A model generated the notes under the pieces. The model was not told the DNA's origin, did no database searches, and saw only the letters and a list, made by a program, of their open reading frames with translations. Shown piece after piece: positions 4,276 through 28,235 of a stretch of DNA of 64,000 nt. The stretch comes from Desulfoglaeba alkanexedens ALDC. Lineage in GTDB: Bacteria > Desulfobacterota > Syntrophobacteria > Syntrophobacterales > DSM-9756. Each line of letters opens with the position of its first letter. Positions within the stretch are counted from its first letter, which is position 1. Both the position numbers and the translations under genes were made by a program. Location of the stretch: NCBI RefSeq assembly GCF_005377625.1, contig NZ_CP040098.1, positions 1,977,501 to 2,041,500 of the forward strand. The letters are read 5' to 3'.

Positions 4276-6057
4276 TCACACAACAGATGCCTTCTGCCTT
4301 ACCGGGCGAGAACCGGCCATAAGCGCTTTTGCTTCGCCCAGAAGCGTCCACTTGAGAAGATGTTCAATCGCGCCGGGTAACTGGCCGAAATGATCGAGAA
4401 ACTGAATTCCGTTGCCGTACTGCTCCACCATTGCCTCACGGTCCTTACAGGCGACCCCAAGGGTCACAAGATGAATCCTCTCCGCAAGGCAGTGATCGAT
4501 TCCAATTTGGACGTCACATCCGAAGTTCGACTCCCCGTCCGTCACATGGATAATAAACCTTCTCCTGGCATCCTTGGGCATGAAGTAAGCAGCGGCAATG
4601 AGGGCTTGTCCAGACGCCGTTTGACCGCTCGGAGGTATTGAAAGTACGCGCTTGCCGTCGAGCAGGCTGGAGAGCATGCAAACCCCGTCCACCTCGAAAT
4701 ACCCGAAGGCCTGAAGCCTGTTGCGGAAACCATGAAAGGCCTTGTGCAGAGTGGCAAGAATACTTTCCACCATCCTCCAGCGTGCTCCGGCCATGGAGCC
4801 GCTGGCATCAACCAACAGACAAATATTCCAGTCAAGATTGGGCAGCGCCTGCCTGTCGAAAAAGCATCGCCCATTCACCGGCGCTCTATGCAGCCTCCGA
4901 CGATCCACTCTTCCTGAAGTAAGTCCCCGGTTAAACACCGTTACACGTTCCGCGTAGCTTTGGAGCACACCTTGAATGCGCCCGATCATTCTAGGATCGA
5001 CGACCGGGCTGATCGGATTATTGAAATCCCACCGGGACGTGGGAACGACGTCGGGATTGTCCGCGCCGGCCACCTTGCGAATAATGGGCGTTATGTCCGC
5101 TGAATGGGCGGCGAGCTTCTCCTCAATGTCTTGAGCCAGATTGGCAGAAAGGCGGGTCTGAACCTTTCTTTTTCTCCTGATTGGACGCACCTTTTCGGAA
5201 CCGTCCCGTGGATACCATAAAAGCGACATGTCGAGGATTTTCCATCCCTCCACATGGGGCGCGATTTTCTTCCAGGTCTCAAGGTACAGCCGCGCCCTGA
5301 GTTCACATCGCCTGACAACTCCCCCCGACGCAAACCCGATGGACCGAAGTTCCCCCGTCGACTCATGGAGGAGGCGCAGCACCTGATCCATTTGTTCAAC
5401 GCCCGCCGATTTATTTTGTTCGAAGGCGCTCCGCCGCCAATGGTGCACAAGCCTGTCCAGACTGACAGCAATATCCCCAAGAAACGGCTCCTCCTGGCGA
5501 AGCTCCACCTCGCGGGCAAGCCGGACGTACTCACCAAGGATGTTCCGTTGGGAAAAGAGATCCACATAAATATCTTCCCCGGTATAGACAATCTTGTGAA
5601 AGGCGATCTTTTCCCGTACCGGCATGTCCGAGGTCGCCTCATGCGACTTCTTCCACACCAGCTCCGTCCATTCCTTTCGATGAAGGGCTTCATGGACCAC
5701 AATGCCCACCAGATAGTCGAACATCGAGGCGGGAATCGGATAGTCCCCCATGATAAGGCCCGGATCGAGCACGATGACGTCCGTGTCGTCCCTCGACATA
5801 CCAGCCCATTCTATGCGCCCGACGTTATGGCCAACGTGCCCGGCAACCTTCTCCAATGCCCGGAGTGCATAGGCCAGTTCCGAGGATTCGAGCTGGGATA
5901 TGTTCCTGCGCCAGTACCGGGAGAGCCCGGCGGCCCCCGCCTCATCGATAAGCCGGTCCAACCGCCTCGCATCGTCTCCGGCGGTGGGCCCCGGGATTTT
6001 AGCCATTGCCGGCTTGAACCAATCAGTAGATTTGATAACCGGTTTCGGTGCGCGCAT
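4276..6057 (-). CDS. VWA-domain protein with N-terminal HEXXH metallopeptidase-like domain (BssF/CobT-like partner of MoxR)
   Basis: The protein is about 593 residues from the ATG at 6057 (GGGGA upstream; an ATG at 6078 is also open). The N-terminal half contains VVHEALHRKEW, a HEXXH zinc-site pattern as in DUF2201-type putative metallopeptidases. A basic linker (RPIRRKRKVQTRL) precedes a C-terminal von Willebrand A domain whose MIDAS motif DASGS is intact, with HVTDGESNFG further on. MoxR ATPases and VWA proteins work in pairs, and the gene overlaps the end of the proximal MoxR gene by 35 bases. It is expected to act as the adaptor of that ATPase on the alkylsuccinate synthase; the peptidase-like site may be structural. 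Confidence 0.85.
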   Translation of the reverse strand: MRAPKPVIKSTDWFKPAMAKIPGPTAGDDARRLDRLIDEAGAAGLSRYWRRNISQLESSELAYALRALEKVAGHVGHNVGRIEWAGMSRDDTDVIVLDPGLIMGDYPIPASMFDYLVGIVVHEALHRKEWTELVWKKSHEATSDMPVREKIAFHKIVYTGEDIYVDLFSQRNILGEYVRLAREVELRQEEPFLGDIAVSLDRLVHHWRRSAFEQNKSAGVEQMDQVLRLLHESTGELRSIGFASGGVVRRCELRARLYLETWKKIAPHVEGWKILDMSLLWYPRDGSEKVRPIRRKRKVQTRLSANLAQDIEEKLAAHSADITPIIRKVAGADNPDVVPTSRWDFNNPISPVVDPRMIGRIQGVLQSYAERVTVFNRGLTSGRVDRRRLHRAPVNGRCFFDRQALPNLDWNICLLVDASGSMAGARWRMVESILATLHKAFHGFRNRLQAFGYFEVDGVCMLSSLLDGKRVLSIPPSGQTASGQALIAAAYFMPKDARRRFIIHVTDGESNFGCDVQIGIDHCLAERIHLVTLGVACKDREAMVEQYGNGIQFLDHFGQLPGAIEHLLKWTLLGEAKALMAGSRPVRQKASVV

Positions 6058-6868
6058 CTTTTTTCCCCAATTGCACATGGAGCGAAAGCAGAATAGACTC
6101 CAGTAAGTCTCTACCCGCCTGAAGACTGTAAACGAAAGCGTCTTCGATGGATGCCCCCACTGCCACCATTTCGGCGATCATGAGCGTGTGGCGGGTCGAA
6201 ACGACCATCGGGTCCTTCGAATTGCTCCTCAGCTTGTTAGCCACATTGACGATTGTCAGTGCTTCCGCTTCAGGAATTCCGGTCTTGTAATGGAGAACCT
6301 TTGTTTCGACATCCACAGGCAAGTAATCCATGGCGGTGACATAGAAACGATCCCGCAAGGCGGCGTCCAATAACTCCGTACCTACGAATTCTTCTCCCTC
6401 ATTGAGGGTAGCCATGAAGACGACACCGTCGGCAACCCGTATGAGTCCAAGCTCGTCCAGCCAGACCTTCCGGTCTTCGGCCAGGACGGAAAAAAGCATG
6501 TTAAGCGCCTTCGGATGCTCGGGGCGGTTGATTTCCTCCAGGTGGATCACACAGCCCGGGGTTTGAATGGCTTGTGGAAACAAAAACTGCTGGTAGTAGG
6601 TTTCTCCGTCCTTTAAGCGGTGCTCGCCGAAAAGCTGACCCGGCTCCGAAAGGATCCCGATCTGGAAGGTTGCAAGCGGCCGCCGGTTGCGTGCAGCGAA
6701 CTGTTTCACGAGAGTCGATTTGCCACACCCCTGCTTGCCGGCGACCAGCACGTTCACAGGATGCCTTTGCGAAAGCATGGCAATCCGCTCCAGATTCTCC
6801 ACCACACTGTTTGGCAGGAAAAAGTGCTCTTCCGGCGCGGGAACGAGGCTGGAAAGATCGAATGTCAT
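6023..6868 (-). CDS. MoxR-family AAA+ ATPase (BssE-like), proximal copy
   Basis: This 281-residue AAA+ ATPase has Walker A AGKQGCGKST, a Walker B-like HLEEINRPEHP, sensor FMATLNEGE and the arginine-finger region DAALRDRFY. It shares long stretches with the copy at 1476-2360 (RHPVN, LATFQ, TPGCVIHLEEINR). AGGAGG lies 11 bases before the ATG. Its 3' end overlaps the start of the VWA gene, indicating coupled translation and a working MoxR/VWA pair. The bss operons of toluene degraders carry a similar ATPase after the synthase subunits. Confidence 0.88.
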   Translation of the reverse strand: MTFDLSSLVPAPEEHFFLPNSVVENLERIAMLSQRHPVNVLVAGKQGCGKSTLVKQFAARNRRPLATFQIGILSEPGQLFGEHRLKDGETYYQQFLFPQAIQTPGCVIHLEEINRPEHPKALNMLFSVLAEDRKVWLDELGLIRVADGVVFMATLNEGEEFVGTELLDAALRDRFYVTAMDYLPVDVETKVLHYKTGIPEAEALTIVNVANKLRSNSKDPMVVSTRHTLMIAEMVAVGASIEDAFVYSLQAGRDLLESILLSLHVQLGKKDARTETGYQIY

Positions 6869-6948: not shown

Positions 6949-7302
6949 CTAATTCCCATAATCCTGCGGAAAAAGCTCCTGCCGCCGAGTTTTGAGGAAT
7001 GCATCGAGAGCCGATATGTTCCACCTCAGATTCATGCGCTTGAGCTTCCGCATAATCTCCCGCGCTTCGCCCAGAGCCTCGGGACCGCTGCATGCTGTAA
7101 TCGCCGCGAGACGTTTCGACATCTCTTTCATCTCTTCCTGCTCTTGTTCCAGGGCCTCATTCCTCGAGAAATTACAATGGTTCCCACACCTGGGACACTC
7201 GCGGAGGTCGGCCTCTCCGCAAGCCGGTCAGCCCGCCTTGCACAAGTACCTAAACTCGATGTATTCGGCCGTGAATCCGCATCTGTTACATGTAAGGTTC
7301 AT
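6949..7302 (-). CDS. AssB-like zinc-ribbon protein with in-frame TGA; candidate selenoprotein
   Basis: From the ATG at 7302 the frame reads 24 codons (CNRCGF at Cys5-Cys8, FRYLCKAG), meets TGA at 7230-7228, and continues without another stop to 6949. If TGA is selenocysteine the product has 117 residues with U25-P-A-C28-G followed by ECPRCG (Cys36, Cys39). The two Cys pairs needed for one zinc ribbon lie on opposite sides of the TGA, with nearly the spacing of the two pairs in AssB (7836-8060), and both share CGF-x-A and FRYL. After the TGA a GCGGAG/CTCCGC hairpin occurs at the place where bacterial SECIS elements lie. The C-terminal part is charged and helical. Alternatives are a nonsense mutation or sequencing error. 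The downstream half alone would start at an ATG at 7131 and lose all Cys motifs. Confidence 0.65.
7201..7220 (-). promoter_or_regulatory. Candidate bacterial SECIS hairpin after in-frame TGA
   Basis: Seven bases after the TGA, GCGGAG pairs with CTCCGC around AGGCCGAC. Letting the first A bulge adds a G-C pair and gives a small loop starting with G. Bacterial SECIS elements are stem-loops inside the coding sequence just downstream of UGA with a G among the first loop bases; the stem here is short and the loop is somewhat close to the TGA. Chance pairing in G+C-rich coding DNA is possible. Confidence 0.4.
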
Positions 7303-7360: not shown

Positions 7361-7738
7361 TTACGATTTGAATTGCCTCTGGGCACGCCGGAATTGCGGA
7401 TCCGCGCATTCAGTGGCATCCGTGTCAATAAATTCCAGCTGATCGTAATAGGGACACCTGGAAGCATCCATGTTGAACATGGTCATCATCCCGGCATCCC
7501 CTTCAAGAACGCACACCGGCGGGTCCGCGGCAAGGTTGCTTCCGACCTTCAGCACCGCGCAGAATCCCCTTCCATCAGAGGCCCATGCGTTCTCGGAGAA
7601 GTGCTTACATTTCCCGCAAGCCTTCTCGGGCAGTTTCTCCCGCTCCTCGAAGCCCTTCTTCGACTGCTCGCCCGTCAAACCCTTCCGCATTTCCTCCCAT
7701 TGACCCCGCCGGGAGGATCGTTTTTCCCTTGCAGCCAT
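7361..7738 (-). CDS. Small Cys-rich protein, probable accessory subunit of the alkylsuccinate synthase
   Basis: The 125-residue protein starts at an ATG with GGAGG seven bases upstream. After a basic, charged N-terminus it has CGKCKHFSENAW, GRGFCAVL, PPVCVLEG and CPYYDQLEF. The C-x2-C-K-x-F pattern resembles AssC, so it is likely an Fe-S or zinc-binding relative of the small BSS/ASS subunits; alkylsuccinate synthases (Mas of strain HxN1) are reported with more small subunits than BSS. It sits between assB and the TGA-containing zinc-ribbon gene. Its exact counterpart (MasB, AssE or other) I cannot decide. Confidence 0.7.
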   Translation of the reverse strand: MAAREKRSSRRGQWEEMRKGLTGEQSKKGFEEREKLPEKACGKCKHFSENAWASDGRGFCAVLKVGSNLAADPPVCVLEGDAGMMTMFNMDASRCPYYDQLEFIDTDATECADPQFRRAQRQFKS

Positions 7739-7835: not shown

Positions 7836-8060
7836 CTAGTCCAGCACAGATGCTGTAACACCCTCTATACCGGCGGATTTACCCCACGGCGCATCTCCGG
7901 GCTTGACGATTTGCACCGCCTCTCCCTTGAGCTCGTTCACGGCGATTACTTCGCCGCACTTTATACATTGGCGCATAGACAAAGGGTCGTCAATCCGAGC
8001 ATTGTAGAGATAACGGAATTTATTTGCTGGAGCCTCAAACCCACAAGCTGGACATTTCAT
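7836..8060 (-). CDS. assB: Alkylsuccinate synthase small subunit, BssB-like
   Basis: The 74-residue product begins MKCPACGFEAPANKFRYLYN and has a second pair RQCIKCGEVIAVNELKGE, a two-CxxC arrangement like BssB, which binds a [4Fe-4S] cluster and covers the active site of benzylsuccinate synthase. AGGAGA precedes the ATG. It follows the catalytic subunit gene after 165 bases containing a strong hairpin. The D-C-A-B order of this operon matches bssDCAB, which supports the assignment. Confidence 0.82.
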   Translation of the reverse strand: MKCPACGFEAPANKFRYLYNARIDDPLSMRQCIKCGEVIAVNELKGEAVQIVKPGDAPWGKSAGIEGVTASVLD

Positions 8061-8225: not shown

Positions 8226-10727
8226 TTACAGACCCTGAATGGTTCTCTGAATGATATTGTCCTGGGTCTTGCGGCTGATGTCCACAAAATGGGCGCTGTA
8301 GCCGGCAACCCGGACGATCACTTCCTGGTACTTTTCGGGGTCCTTCTGCGCCGCCCTAAGCGTGGCGTCATCGACCATGTTGAACTGTACGTGGTCCAGA
8401 CCGAGGTCCGCCCAGGTCCGCATGTAGGCCTTCCACAGCTGATAACCCTGCTCACCCTTGAGCTGGGTCGGGGAAAGGCGCTGATTGAGGAGGAAGGCAC
8501 GCCCGTGGCGCACATGGTCGAACTTGCCGCAGGATTTGAGCACTGCGGTAGGCCCCTTTTTGTCAAGCCCCGGACCGGGCGAGATCCCACCGTCATAGAG
8601 CGCGTCGCCGCGTTTGCGGCCGTTGGGAAGGGCCCCAACGATGTTGGCATAGTGGATATTCCCGCTTACGTTCTCAGGTAAAAGCGGCCATGGATTCCCA
8701 GTGGGATCTTTCAGCTCTTTCGAATGCCTGGCAACCTCTTCAAGGCAACGCACCATGATCTGGTCCACATAGTCGTCGTCATTTCCCCACTTGGGAGCAT
8801 TCCGCACGAAATCCAGGCGCATTTCTTCGTAACCGTCCCAGTTGGCCTGCAAAGCGTCGATCAATTGATCCATCGTGTATTTCTTCTCGTCGAAGACAAG
8901 CTTTTTTACGGCAGCAAGACTGTCGGCATTCTCGACCCAGGTAAACCCCGTAACCCAGCTGTTGCCGCGCTCACCTTCAGGGTTCACAATGTCAGTGCCC
9001 TGTTCCACCGATCGCTCGGAAATGGCTGAAAGAAACGGTCTTCCATAAAACTCCGGATCTTTTACCCGTCCGAGATTGACCGTTCTCACAAGCGTATTGG
9101 TGAGCCACTCCATCTGCTTCACCCAGGCTTCAAACAGCTCGTCGAAGCTTTTGAACTTCCTCGCATCTCCCGTCTTGGGACCCATTTGCATATTCACAAC
9201 GGGATCATAGCCGTTGAACAGAGCATACTCGATCATCTTGGCGCAATTCGCGGTCGCAGAGGCCATACGGAACGGCTGAAAACCATGCTTTGTCGTCGGA
9301 CACGGCGACATACACGCCTGGTGGACCCATGTTCTCGCTTCCTCCAGGGGATGCCCATGCCAATACATGGCATTTTGCACAAGGATCGGATCGTTACGCA
9401 TGGAAGGATAACCGAGCCCGTGCCGGATGCATTCGAAGCATTCGCGCATGATGTCGTCGGGGACCTTGGGATGCCAGCGAAAGGCGAACGTCGGGTTGGC
9501 CACCCGGACAAGCCTGGCGGCTTGTAGAAACGCTCTTGTCAAATCGTTGCACGCGTCGGTGCCGTCCGGCTTGACGCCGCCAATAGTCCACACCCATGTG
9601 CCGGTAATCCCTTGCAGTCCTTCCCTGGTCCAACGTGGAGCAAACCCTCCGAGTTCGTATGCCCGGATGAGGAATTCGCCCACCAGCTCCAGTGCCTGTT
9701 CATGGGTCAGGTTCTTCTCGATGTTGACATCCTTGTCGTAGAACGGCCCGTGATAGTAGTCCGGCCGGGCAGGCCACGCACCCTCGTATGCCTCGTACCG
9801 CGCGAGGATCTGGATGAAATGGTCCATTTGCAGCGATTCCTGCAGCGACCTCGGCGCCTTTGCGGGCACCCTTTCACAGGTTTCGGCTATGCCCAGCAAC
9901 TCCTCTTTGCGTTTGGGGTCGCTTTCGAAGTTCTCCGCGATAATGCGAGCCAGCCGGGCGTAACGGCGTGCCCAGTCGACGGCCGCTTCGAGGACGATCA
10001 GCATCGCCTCCCAGTTTTGGATTTTTTCGTAGTAGGGTAAAAGCTCAGGCCCAGGTGTTCCACGGACAATCTCTTGCGCCTCGTCCAACCTGGCTTCTAT
10101 TTCCTCCATGATATCTTCGAACCCGCGCTTTCCCGTCAAGATATATTCATAGTCTTTCCCGGAGTAGCCATAGGCCGAGGTGGGCACACCCCAACCAATC
10201 GCTCCACTCATGAACTTTACCGCGTCCTCGGGGTCAAGCAGCCTCGCAACCTGGTCGATAGCCGTGTTTCCCGCCCAGTAGTTGTTGAGATCAGCCATAA
10301 TCTTGAGCGATTCCTCTTCAGGTTCCGGAATAACGCCCTCTTCGTTGTACGCCTCTTCGTTCACCATGCTTGCGCCCTCAATAGGCCACATCCCCAACGT
10401 ATTGGGGGCACTCCCGACATAGCCTACAAGCTGAGCGTGATCGGTGATAAATATCGGTATATTCCGCCAGACATGGGCGAGCGCTTTGGCTTTGCGCATC
10501 ATAATGGGATCACGCTCGTTTTCCTTCCATGACTCGGTGAAAAGGATATTGCGCATAATCTCAATTTTTATGCCAGGAGCATACGCTCCACCTATGGCGC
10601 CCTTTTTCCAAACCGCCTTGCGCAGATAGTCCAGCCGCGGGCTGCGCAGCTTTTCGGCCACTTTCCACCATTGCTGGCTCTCTTTCAGTTGTTCGATGTC
10701 CTGTCTTGCTTCAGCTGCCTGTGCCAT
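8226..10727 (-). CDS. assA: Alkylsuccinate synthase catalytic (alpha) subunit, glycyl-radical enzyme
   Basis: The 833-residue protein has the C-terminal glycyl-radical motif RVAGYSAHFVD (Gly809) and the thiyl-radical region HQACMSPCPTT. Cys472 is the likely catalytic Cys because Arg487 follows 15 residues later, as I recall for Cys493/Arg508 of benzylsuccinate synthase. PKWGNDDD is also typical of the BssA/AssA/MasD group, and overall resemblance is closer to AssA/MasD than to PFL or glycerol dehydratases. It adds fumarate to the subterminal carbon of an n-alkane, giving (1-methylalkyl)succinate, in the cytoplasm. AGGAGG precedes the ATG. It follows assC by 27 bases. The glycyl radical would be installed by the upstream activase. 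Substrate chain length cannot be read. Confidence 0.95.
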   Translation of the reverse strand: MAQAAEARQDIEQLKESQQWWKVAEKLRSPRLDYLRKAVWKKGAIGGAYAPGIKIEIMRNILFTESWKENERDPIMMRKAKALAHVWRNIPIFITDHAQLVGYVGSAPNTLGMWPIEGASMVNEEAYNEEGVIPEPEEESLKIMADLNNYWAGNTAIDQVARLLDPEDAVKFMSGAIGWGVPTSAYGYSGKDYEYILTGKRGFEDIMEEIEARLDEAQEIVRGTPGPELLPYYEKIQNWEAMLIVLEAAVDWARRYARLARIIAENFESDPKRKEELLGIAETCERVPAKAPRSLQESLQMDHFIQILARYEAYEGAWPARPDYYHGPFYDKDVNIEKNLTHEQALELVGEFLIRAYELGGFAPRWTREGLQGITGTWVWTIGGVKPDGTDACNDLTRAFLQAARLVRVANPTFAFRWHPKVPDDIMRECFECIRHGLGYPSMRNDPILVQNAMYWHGHPLEEARTWVHQACMSPCPTTKHGFQPFRMASATANCAKMIEYALFNGYDPVVNMQMGPKTGDARKFKSFDELFEAWVKQMEWLTNTLVRTVNLGRVKDPEFYGRPFLSAISERSVEQGTDIVNPEGERGNSWVTGFTWVENADSLAAVKKLVFDEKKYTMDQLIDALQANWDGYEEMRLDFVRNAPKWGNDDDYVDQIMVRCLEEVARHSKELKDPTGNPWPLLPENVSGNIHYANIVGALPNGRKRGDALYDGGISPGPGLDKKGPTAVLKSCGKFDHVRHGRAFLLNQRLSPTQLKGEQGYQLWKAYMRTWADLGLDHVQFNMVDDATLRAAQKDPEKYQEVIVRVAGYSAHFVDISRKTQDNIIQRTIQGL

Positions 10728-10754: not shown

Positions 10755-10919
10755 TTACCTCTTTGCAAATTGGCTGCACTTCGAGGCGTCCTGGTCAGCC
10801 GCCACAGGCTTGGCCCTGTAGTATGCCTGCCTGGGATCCACTACCCGCTGAACACAGTCGCCCATCGATTCATCATCTTCCTGAGGAAAATAATTCTTGC
10901 ATTCTTTACATGTAGGCAT
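10755..10919 (-). CDS. assC: Alkylsuccinate synthase small subunit, BssC-like
   Basis: This 54-residue protein starts at the ATG at 10919 with AGGAGG and suitable spacing; a longer frame to 10994 lacks a site. MPTCKECKNYFPQEDDESMG and the later GDC, ASKCSQFAKR give the four-Cys pattern of the gamma subunit of benzylsuccinate synthase, a small [4Fe-4S] protein that stabilises the alpha subunit. It immediately precedes assA, as bssC precedes bssA. Confidence 0.85.
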   Translation of the reverse strand: MPTCKECKNYFPQEDDESMGDCVQRVVDPRQAYYRAKPVAADQDASKCSQFAKR

Positions 10920-11168
10920 TTGATTCCTCCTTTCTTTTTCTCCTCCAGCTCCATCCACATACCCATTGCCCAGGTTTATCCAAATAGATTGCACCGGCTT
11001 CCCCCCATCGGCACCGCGAGAGCAGCCTCAGGAATCGTCAGTACAGAACCAGGCGGTCAGCCATCGTTCTCTACCGGAACCATGTGGGGCCTCCATTCCT
11101 AACGTTTGCTCACCTCCTTTCCTTCACGTTCGTCAACGCGTTCGTCAATCGCCATACGCCGGGGTTCA
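10920..11168 (-). other. Spacer between activase and assC genes
   Basis: No gene of convincing size is visible in these 249 bases. Two Shine-Dalgarno-like stretches (near 11110-11125 and 11090) precede only very short frames of 4 and 8 codons. The spacer may hold an internal promoter or processing site for higher expression of the synthase subunits; I see no clear consensus. Confidence 0.4.
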
Positions 11169-12143
11169 TCACCCCGATGCCGTTGCCTGTGCCTGAAAAC
11201 CCGACCCACCAATCGTCGCATTCAGTCCCGCCGACAGGTACAGCTCCAACAACGGCTCCACCTCATCCGGGTGAACACTTTCCGTCTCCCCAAAGGACCA
11301 GGGTCGTCCAAGCCAGCGGTATTTGTCCTGGCACCAGTTGTGAAAAGGCAGCAAGTCGATACGTTCCAACGATCCGGGAAGACTTCGAAGAAAAGCAACC
11401 ACACGGCGGTGGTAATCAATCGAATCGGTGCAGCCGGGCAACACCACAATTCTCAGCCAGATCCTGCAGCCCTTTGCCGTAAGCCTCTGCAAATTGTGAA
11501 GAATGAGCTGGTTCGGTACGCCTGTCAGGCGCTCATGTTCATCCGAGTCGAGATGTTTCAGGTCGTACAGAATGATGTCGGCTCGCTCGGCGACGGGCTC
11601 CAATATCTCCCAGGGCGAATGCCCCGAAGTATCAAGGCAGATATGAAGGTTTCGCGCCTTGAGCGCATCCATCAGCTTTCGAATGAATTCGCCAAACACC
11701 AGAGGCTCCCCGCCACTGATAGTCACCCCCCCTCCGGAATTGTCATAGAAAGGCCGATCCCGCTCGAGCTCTTCGACGATTTCTTCCATGGACATGGGCT
11801 TGCCGACCTGCTCGAGCGCACCGTAGCTGCACGCCTCCACGCATTTCATGCATTTATCACATTTTGCCTTGTCGATCTTATAGTAGGTCGAGTCCTCACG
11901 CTGCGCTTCTTCCGGGGGAATCGGAGGGAAAACCGCCTGGTTGGGACAGACATCGAAACAGTGTCCGCATTGAACGCATAACCTACTTTTCCAGTAAATC
12001 TCGGGGGAAAACGACTGGGTTTCAGGGTTATGGCACCATTGACACCGCAAAGGACATCCCTTAAAAAACACGATCGTCCGAAACCCGGGTCCGTCGTTTA
12101 CGGAAAATCGCTGAATCTGCGTAACGAGTGGTCGGTTTTCCAC
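11169..12143 (-). CDS. assD: Glycyl-radical-enzyme activase of the alkylsuccinate synthase (radical SAM)
   Basis: The 324-residue protein has the radical-SAM Cys triad CPLRCQWC (Cys30, 34, 37), two ferredoxin-type motifs (CVQCGHCFDVCP at 56-66; CDKCMKCVEAC at 95-105) inserted as in BssD and other activases, and GGGVTISGGEPL for SAM binding. It abstracts a hydrogen from Gly809 of AssA with the 5'-deoxyadenosyl radical. Translation starts at GTG 12143 with AGGAGG seven bases upstream. It is the first gene of the D-C-A-B operon, and a sigma-54-type element lies about 190 bases upstream. Confidence 0.93.
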   Translation of the reverse strand: MENRPLVTQIQRFSVNDGPGFRTIVFFKGCPLRCQWCHNPETQSFSPEIYWKSRLCVQCGHCFDVCPNQAVFPPIPPEEAQREDSTYYKIDKAKCDKCMKCVEACSYGALEQVGKPMSMEEIVEELERDRPFYDNSGGGVTISGGEPLVFGEFIRKLMDALKARNLHICLDTSGHSPWEILEPVAERADIILYDLKHLDSDEHERLTGVPNQLILHNLQRLTAKGCRIWLRIVVLPGCTDSIDYHRRVVAFLRSLPGSLERIDLLPFHNWCQDKYRWLGRPWSFGETESVHPDEVEPLLELYLSAGLNATIGGSGFQAQATASG

Positions 12144-28064: not shown

Positions 28065-28140
<76 letters not shown>

Positions 28141-28158
28141 GGAATGTGCCGCTGTATC

Positions 28159-28235
<77 letters not shown>

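Follow-up and report, generated by a model that had tools for sequence, protein, structure and literature searches.

An apparently undescribed selenoprotein family encoded in alkylsuccinate synthase operons, with a domain related to MasE

Background

Does the TGA triplet that interrupts a short reading frame in an alkylsuccinate synthase (ass) operon of Desulfoglaeba alkanexedens ALDC end translation, or does it specify selenocysteine (Sec), and in the latter case what might a selenoprotein be doing in such an operon? The frame lies on the minus strand of a stretch of 64,000 nucleotides (contig NZ_CP040098.1, positions 1,977,501 to 2,041,500), hereafter the window, which was taken from a genome assembled as one contig of 3,365,583 bases. 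A preliminary description, made from the letters of the window alone, had proposed that the frame encodes a new selenoprotein with two Cys pairs. The analysis presented here indicates that UGA codon 25 is almost certainly decoded as Sec by SelB and tRNA-Sec, aided by a short downstream hairpin. It further makes it likely that the 117-residue product represents an apparently undescribed family which is dedicated to alkylsuccinate synthase operons; a selenol-based part in maturation or repair is tentatively proposed for it. The elements concerned are as follows.

6949..7302, minus strand: selenoprotein gene, 117 residues (frame reading, relatives and a predicted structure model of low confidence)
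7228..7230, minus strand: TGA codon 25, read as Sec (38 TGA and 9 Cys among 47 relatives; second genomic copy also TGA)
7201..7220, minus strand: hairpin resembling a selenocysteine insertion sequence (SECIS), stem of 7220-7214 paired to 7207-7201 around the apical loop 7213-7208 (test against synonymous codons and counts of pairs in 38 genes)

A conserved TGA and its exchange with Cys

Translation of the minus strand from the ATG at 7302-7300 to the TAG stop at 6951-6949 yields MNLTCNRCGFTAEYIEFRYLCKAG-U-PACGEADLRECPRCG..., in which the only TGA is codon 25 and the frame stays open for 92 further codons. The placement of Cys5/Cys8 and Cys36/Cys39 on either side of the TGA, as first described, is reproduced by this translation; a plus-strand reading of the same interval gives no such protein and was discarded. 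A second copy of the gene, 91% identical and likewise with a TGA, lies in the second ass cluster of the genome.

Relatives were sought in a first draw of 395 genomes from the phylum, Sec being read as Cys, in which 19 genomes matched, one of them weakly, and then with profiles in 340 genomes from one order and 155 from one class. After removal of identical genes this yielded 47 distinct full-length members, the present gene included, in all of which the frame is conserved before as well as after codon 25. The expectation that relatives in other ass operons would have either Cys or TGA at this codon is borne out throughout, with 38 TGA, nine Cys and no other residue. In a 20-row alignment the Sec/Cys25 column and Cys5, Cys8, Cys36 and Cys39 are invariant, and positions 21 and 28 vary. 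The nonsynonymous substitution rate (dN) is well below the synonymous rate (dS) also after the TGA in most close pairs. The tree of the family requires at least three to four changes between Sec and Cys. One of the Cys forms (L107, 70-402, plus strand) reads TGC GTG where its close relatives L106, L110 and L112 read TGA CCG, stands beside Sec forms on the tree and can still form the complete seven-pair stem described below; it looks like a recent Sec-to-Cys change that has retained a fossil SECIS.

The redox pair of the U-x-x-C type that had been suggested for this protein survives in a modified form. Every Sec form has a further Cys no more than five residues away from Sec (38/38, at 21, 23, 24, 28 or 30), and all nine Cys forms have Cys at both 21 and 28. 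However, a fixed Cys28 could not be upheld, since the U-P-A-C motif is kept in 27 of the 38 Sec forms and the remaining 11 have Thr or Ser at this place. No relatives were found in plasmids or viral contigs, and a scan of genome contigs recovered one short match of 31 residues in Rarobacter.

The SECIS-like hairpin and the decoding machinery

The GCGGAG/CTCCGC hairpin noticed after the TGA in the preliminary description was confirmed at 7220-7201. Counted from the T of TGA, its stem pairs positions 10-16 with 23-29 around a six-base loop, which in this gene is GGCCGA, with G first. To assess it, the protein was held fixed and its codons were replaced 2000 times by synonymous ones drawn from elsewhere in the same genes. 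Together the 38 Sec forms make 241 pairs against 168 expected (on average 6.3 of 7 against 4.4), none of the 2000 draws reaching this number, and the corresponding z of 10.3 overstates the significance because related sequences share changes. The nine Cys forms make 42 pairs against 38 expected (z 1.0). Kinship affects the difference between Sec and Cys forms less, although the latter number only nine. Across the Sec forms 90.6% of cells are paired, a value that drops to 35-54% when the register is slid by 1-3 bases. Changes on both sides of the stem are seen at three base pairs, in 12 cells in total; at the outermost pair G-C becomes C-G where codon 28 changes from TGC to ACC and an Arg codon from CGC to CGG. 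Judged by this codon test, the hairpin is under selection in the TGA forms only.

The genes selA, selB, selC and selD, whose presence would be expected, are all found in the D. alkanexedens genome (tRNA-Sec with anticodon TCA, 75 bits; SelB, 379; SelA, 623; SelD, 380). The selD gene (G000:C1:409171-410097) itself contains an in-frame TGA, and SelD of this organism is probably a selenoprotein too. In each of the 18 first-draw genomes that carry the gene, tRNA-Sec or SelB is clearly present. The genomes with Cys forms in that draw also have the Sec machinery; therefore the exchange of Sec and Cys is not due to its loss.

Two other accounts of the TGA can be weighed against these data. If it were a true stop, the locus would represent a gene that has decayed or been split, or would encode two short proteins, as might be supposed from the fact that standard translation ends there and that an ATG-started open reading frame of 60 residues lies downstream. 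Yet the same position is TGA or Cys in 47 genes, codons 26 to 57 are conserved with dN below dS in most pairs, the genes checked have no start ahead of about codon 44-58, and both copies in the D. alkanexedens genome keep the TGA. The conservation after the TGA rules out a decayed gene, and we give a genuine stop a negligible chance. Recoding as another amino acid such as Trp or Gly, or non-specific readthrough, would equally leave an open frame, which is the sole point in its favour. It is rejected because only Cys replaces the TGA; moreover, the hairpin is selected in the TGA forms alone and selABCD is complete, and we consider it extremely improbable. Hence, decoding as Sec is by far the best account of codon 25.

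Relationship to MasE

Residues 1-45 of the selenoprotein form a rubredoxin-like CxxC...CxxC domain with a Sec-bearing loop. The best match of this domain among natural proteins of solved structure is MasE (MASS-delta; E 0.002), and comparison of MasE with the selenoprotein family by hhalign gives 95.6% over residues 3-43. By these profile comparisons the N-terminal domain and MasE are paralogues. In the structure with the PDB entry 9O8U, MASS-delta has a rubredoxin-like fold, binds one Fe through Cys3, 6, 32 and 35 and is located at the expected binding place of the activating enzyme; the authors of the structure call the rationale of this rubredoxin-like subunit enigmatic (PMC12358834). All four ligands are kept in the selenoprotein as Cys5, 8, 36 and 39, which are predicted to form a comparable metal site. 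The two proteins occur in the same operons and also have the CGF..FRYL and R-x-C-x-x-C patterns in common. They differ in that MasE, of about 72 residues, has a loop free of Sec and Cys, whereas the loop of the selenoprotein carries Sec and is two residues longer. The C-terminal tail of MasE, PWGKSAGIE, binds the glycyl radical domain; in the selenoprotein this tail is not present and its place is taken by a predicted helical domain (about residues 47-110), for which three helices are suggested with low confidence.

Another small MasE-like protein (FRFL...SAG...YRQCPxC), which has no Sec and is mostly encoded near AssD, was observed in L050, L128, L148 and L149. It is perhaps a second delta-like subunit.

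Genomic context

The selenoprotein gene sits within alkylsuccinate synthase cluster 1 of the genome. This cluster has been described as a minus-strand set of assABCDE and masE, with no selenoprotein mentioned (PMC7180275). Its surroundings in the window are as follows.

4276..6078, minus strand: VWA-domain protein, partner of the ATPase (PF00092; after the ATPase in most loci)
6023..6868, minus strand: MoxR-type AAA ATPase, directly downstream of the selenoprotein gene (PF07728 and CbbQ_C matches)
7361..7687, minus strand: MasB-like subunit (MASS-beta), start codon provisional (PDB 9O8U chain B, E 2.9e-28)
7836..8060, minus strand: MasE-like subunit (MASS-delta, rubredoxin-like; PDB 9O8U chain D, E 6.8e-21)
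8226..10727, minus strand: AssA/MasD, catalytic glycyl radical subunit (PDB 9O8U chain A, 1418 bits; Gly_radical)
10755..10994, minus strand: AssC/MasC (BssC_TutF family), gamma subunit (PF08201, E 6e-16)
11169..12143, minus strand: AssD/MasG, radical SAM activating enzyme (Radical_SAM and Fer4 domains)

The gene at 7836-8060 had earlier been taken for AssB. This assignment was wrong, as it encodes MasE/MASS-delta, and the MasB counterpart is the frame at 7361-7687. Elsewhere in the window, two tRNA genes were noted on the minus strand at 28068-28235.

The same arrangement recurs among the relatives. A MoxR-type ATPase gene is the next one downstream on the same strand in 42 of the 45 loci with enough sequence, and an ass gene lies upstream in 35 of the 39 loci with enough upstream sequence. 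BssC/TutF, present in only 20 of the 395 genomes, is found in 16 of the 18 that carry the selenoprotein gene; in the remaining two, AssD-like genes lie on contigs separate from that of the selenoprotein gene (L148, L149).

Comparison with known selenoprotein families

Searches with Pfam, NCBIfam and PADLOC models gave no credible match to the selenoprotein. The families of a 2025 paper by Haft and Tolstoy, which reportedly deals with selenoprotein neighbourhoods, were covered as listed in Table 1 of a review, and the present family appears to be undescribed. An inventory of 119 prokaryotic selenoprotein families from May 2026 holds no fitting entry and names no such operon (PMC13188914). The original remark that no selenoprotein had been reported in fumarate-addition operons is thus consistent with the searchable literature.

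The closest analogies are with two families of small or zinc ribbon-containing selenoproteins. NF041197 (CxxC_Se_CxxC, the dual CXXC small selenoprotein, OS_HP3 / DW) is also small and has Sec between two CxxC pairs, but its members are of about 55 residues with an RxU motif and other spacing; hhalign gives only 17% in the ribbon, and the model, at its cut-off of 40 bits, matches neither this protein nor 19 of its relatives. A member of NF041197 is encoded elsewhere in the D. alkanexedens genome (G000:C1:1308195-1308353, with an in-frame TGA, 46 bits) and is the sole match in that genome; TGA-containing members similar to it were seen in other ass-bearing genomes (L167-L171). NF049953, the zinc ribbon-containing (seleno)protein DG (deep-Sep), is likewise a zinc-ribbon selenoprotein of Desulfobacterota. 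It matches weakly from the Sec position onwards in three of 20 members of the present family, the best at 26.7 bits (E 4.4e-6), where its cut-off is 130 bits, and gives no match for the gene in the window itself; moreover, DG extends over 172 positions and the match lacks the N-terminal CxxC half. With the UxxC selenoproteins of the thioredoxin fold, most Sec forms have the U-P-A-C motif in common, though it is not conserved. No thioredoxin-family match was obtained for the selenoprotein, and its single-sequence AlphaFold model, with a predicted local distance difference test score (pLDDT) of 61, is too weak for fold comparison. Finally, the ATPase and VWA pair that follows the selenoprotein gene is of the same kind as BssE/TutH-like ATPases and MoxR-VWA modules, from which the selenoprotein differs as a separate small protein encoded upstream.

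Possible function

The loop around Sec25 with its nearby Cys is compatible either with selenenylsulfide chemistry in which the partner can move or with a soft metal site. Further, the helical C-terminus, together with the constant ATPase neighbour, suggests that the selenoprotein works with the MoxR-VWA pair. Among the functional readings, whose relative weights are matters of judgement and not computed values, we tentatively put first an adaptor that uses its selenol in maturation or repair; a metal carrier comes second and an electron carrier third. On this proposal the protein would not belong to the enzyme in its resting state. It would bind the glycyl radical enzyme at the place used by MASS-delta or the activating enzyme, reduce oxidised cysteines or reset the metal site by means of its Sec-Cys pair, and then deliver the complex to the two proteins encoded alongside, the MoxR-type ATPase and the VWA protein.

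The same features could be read differently if Sec were a soft metal ligand, or part of an iron carrier that supplies, for instance, MASS-delta or Fe-S subunits with Fe, instead of a redox catalyst. Sec does lie within a rubredoxin-like metal domain, the Cys residues near it change position between relatives as they do in flexible metal sites, zinc-ribbon-like selenoproteins are known elsewhere (NF041197, NF049953, FmdB), and one Fe is bound by MASS-delta, which the same operon encodes. However, Sec is surplus to the metal site because Cys5, 8, 36 and 39 match the ligands of MASS-delta and are all invariant, and we consider this role unlikely. Transfer of electrons through the rubredoxin-like centre to AssD or another operon product would make use of the four-Cys site, would agree with the location of the gene in the operon and would answer the need of the activating enzyme for one electron; but the constant neighbour is the ATPase and not AssD, and we regard such a role as improbable.

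Several observations weigh against the proposal of a Sec-dependent adaptor dedicated to these operons. The position of the partner Cys shifts between relatives, a fixed UxxC redox motif not being conserved. tRNA-Sec is absent or doubtful in two genomes (G366 and G077), and SelB falls below the cut-off in a third (G189). Sec machinery is common in this phylum, because of which its presence alone constitutes weak evidence. In two genomes of a single genus (G182 and G719) the gene lies away from the ass genes. Lastly, the mas cluster of strain HxN1 (masA-masG) has been described without such a gene (PMC12358834); therefore the selenoprotein is not needed for catalysis everywhere.

Further Sec-bearing branches

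Two additional groups of Sec-containing proteins are related to this family, and hairpins or folded stretches follow the TGA in both. The first, from four genomes (L123-L126), is related over nearly the full length (hhalign 99.2%) and has Sec in the motif S-U-[CSG]-G-P, or C-U-G-G in L126. Its members are located as follows.

L123, 1498-1782, minus strand: S-U-[CSG]-G-P branch
L124, 1633-1782, minus strand: S-U-[CSG]-G-P branch
L125, 1501-1650, plus strand: S-U-[CSG]-G-P branch
L126, 1501-1800, plus strand: S-U-[CSG]-G-P branch

In L123 and L126 the gene directly adjoins a divergent AssD-like gene. An AssA-like gene of 41% identity lies near it on the contig of L125 (L150). This branch possibly marks another fumarate-adding system. 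The second group, from four genomes of one genus (L144-L147), comprises a protein of 66-67 residues with the motif G-G-U-H-T-V-G, related over residues 1-51 (hhalign 97.4%). No ass genes adjoin it, and in L070 (9860-10015, minus strand) genes for an acyl-CoA ligase and a thiolase are nearby.

Conclusions

The gene described here is a conserved operon member that automatic annotation would cut at its TGA, and it is found in bacteria that degrade oil anaerobically, beside the enzyme that attacks alkanes. The assembly and upkeep of this oxygen-sensitive enzyme are poorly known, and a Sec-bearing paralogue in alkylsuccinate synthase operons offers a concrete and testable candidate for a part in them. 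It is plausible, though we advance it with reserve, that alkane activation in Desulfobacterota depends on a Sec-bearing paralogue of MASS-delta which repairs or readies the enzyme together with the MoxR-VWA pair, within a superfamily that includes at least two further Sec branches. The presence of such a paralogue in the operons also leads to the prediction that selenium supply may affect the anaerobic degradation of oil.
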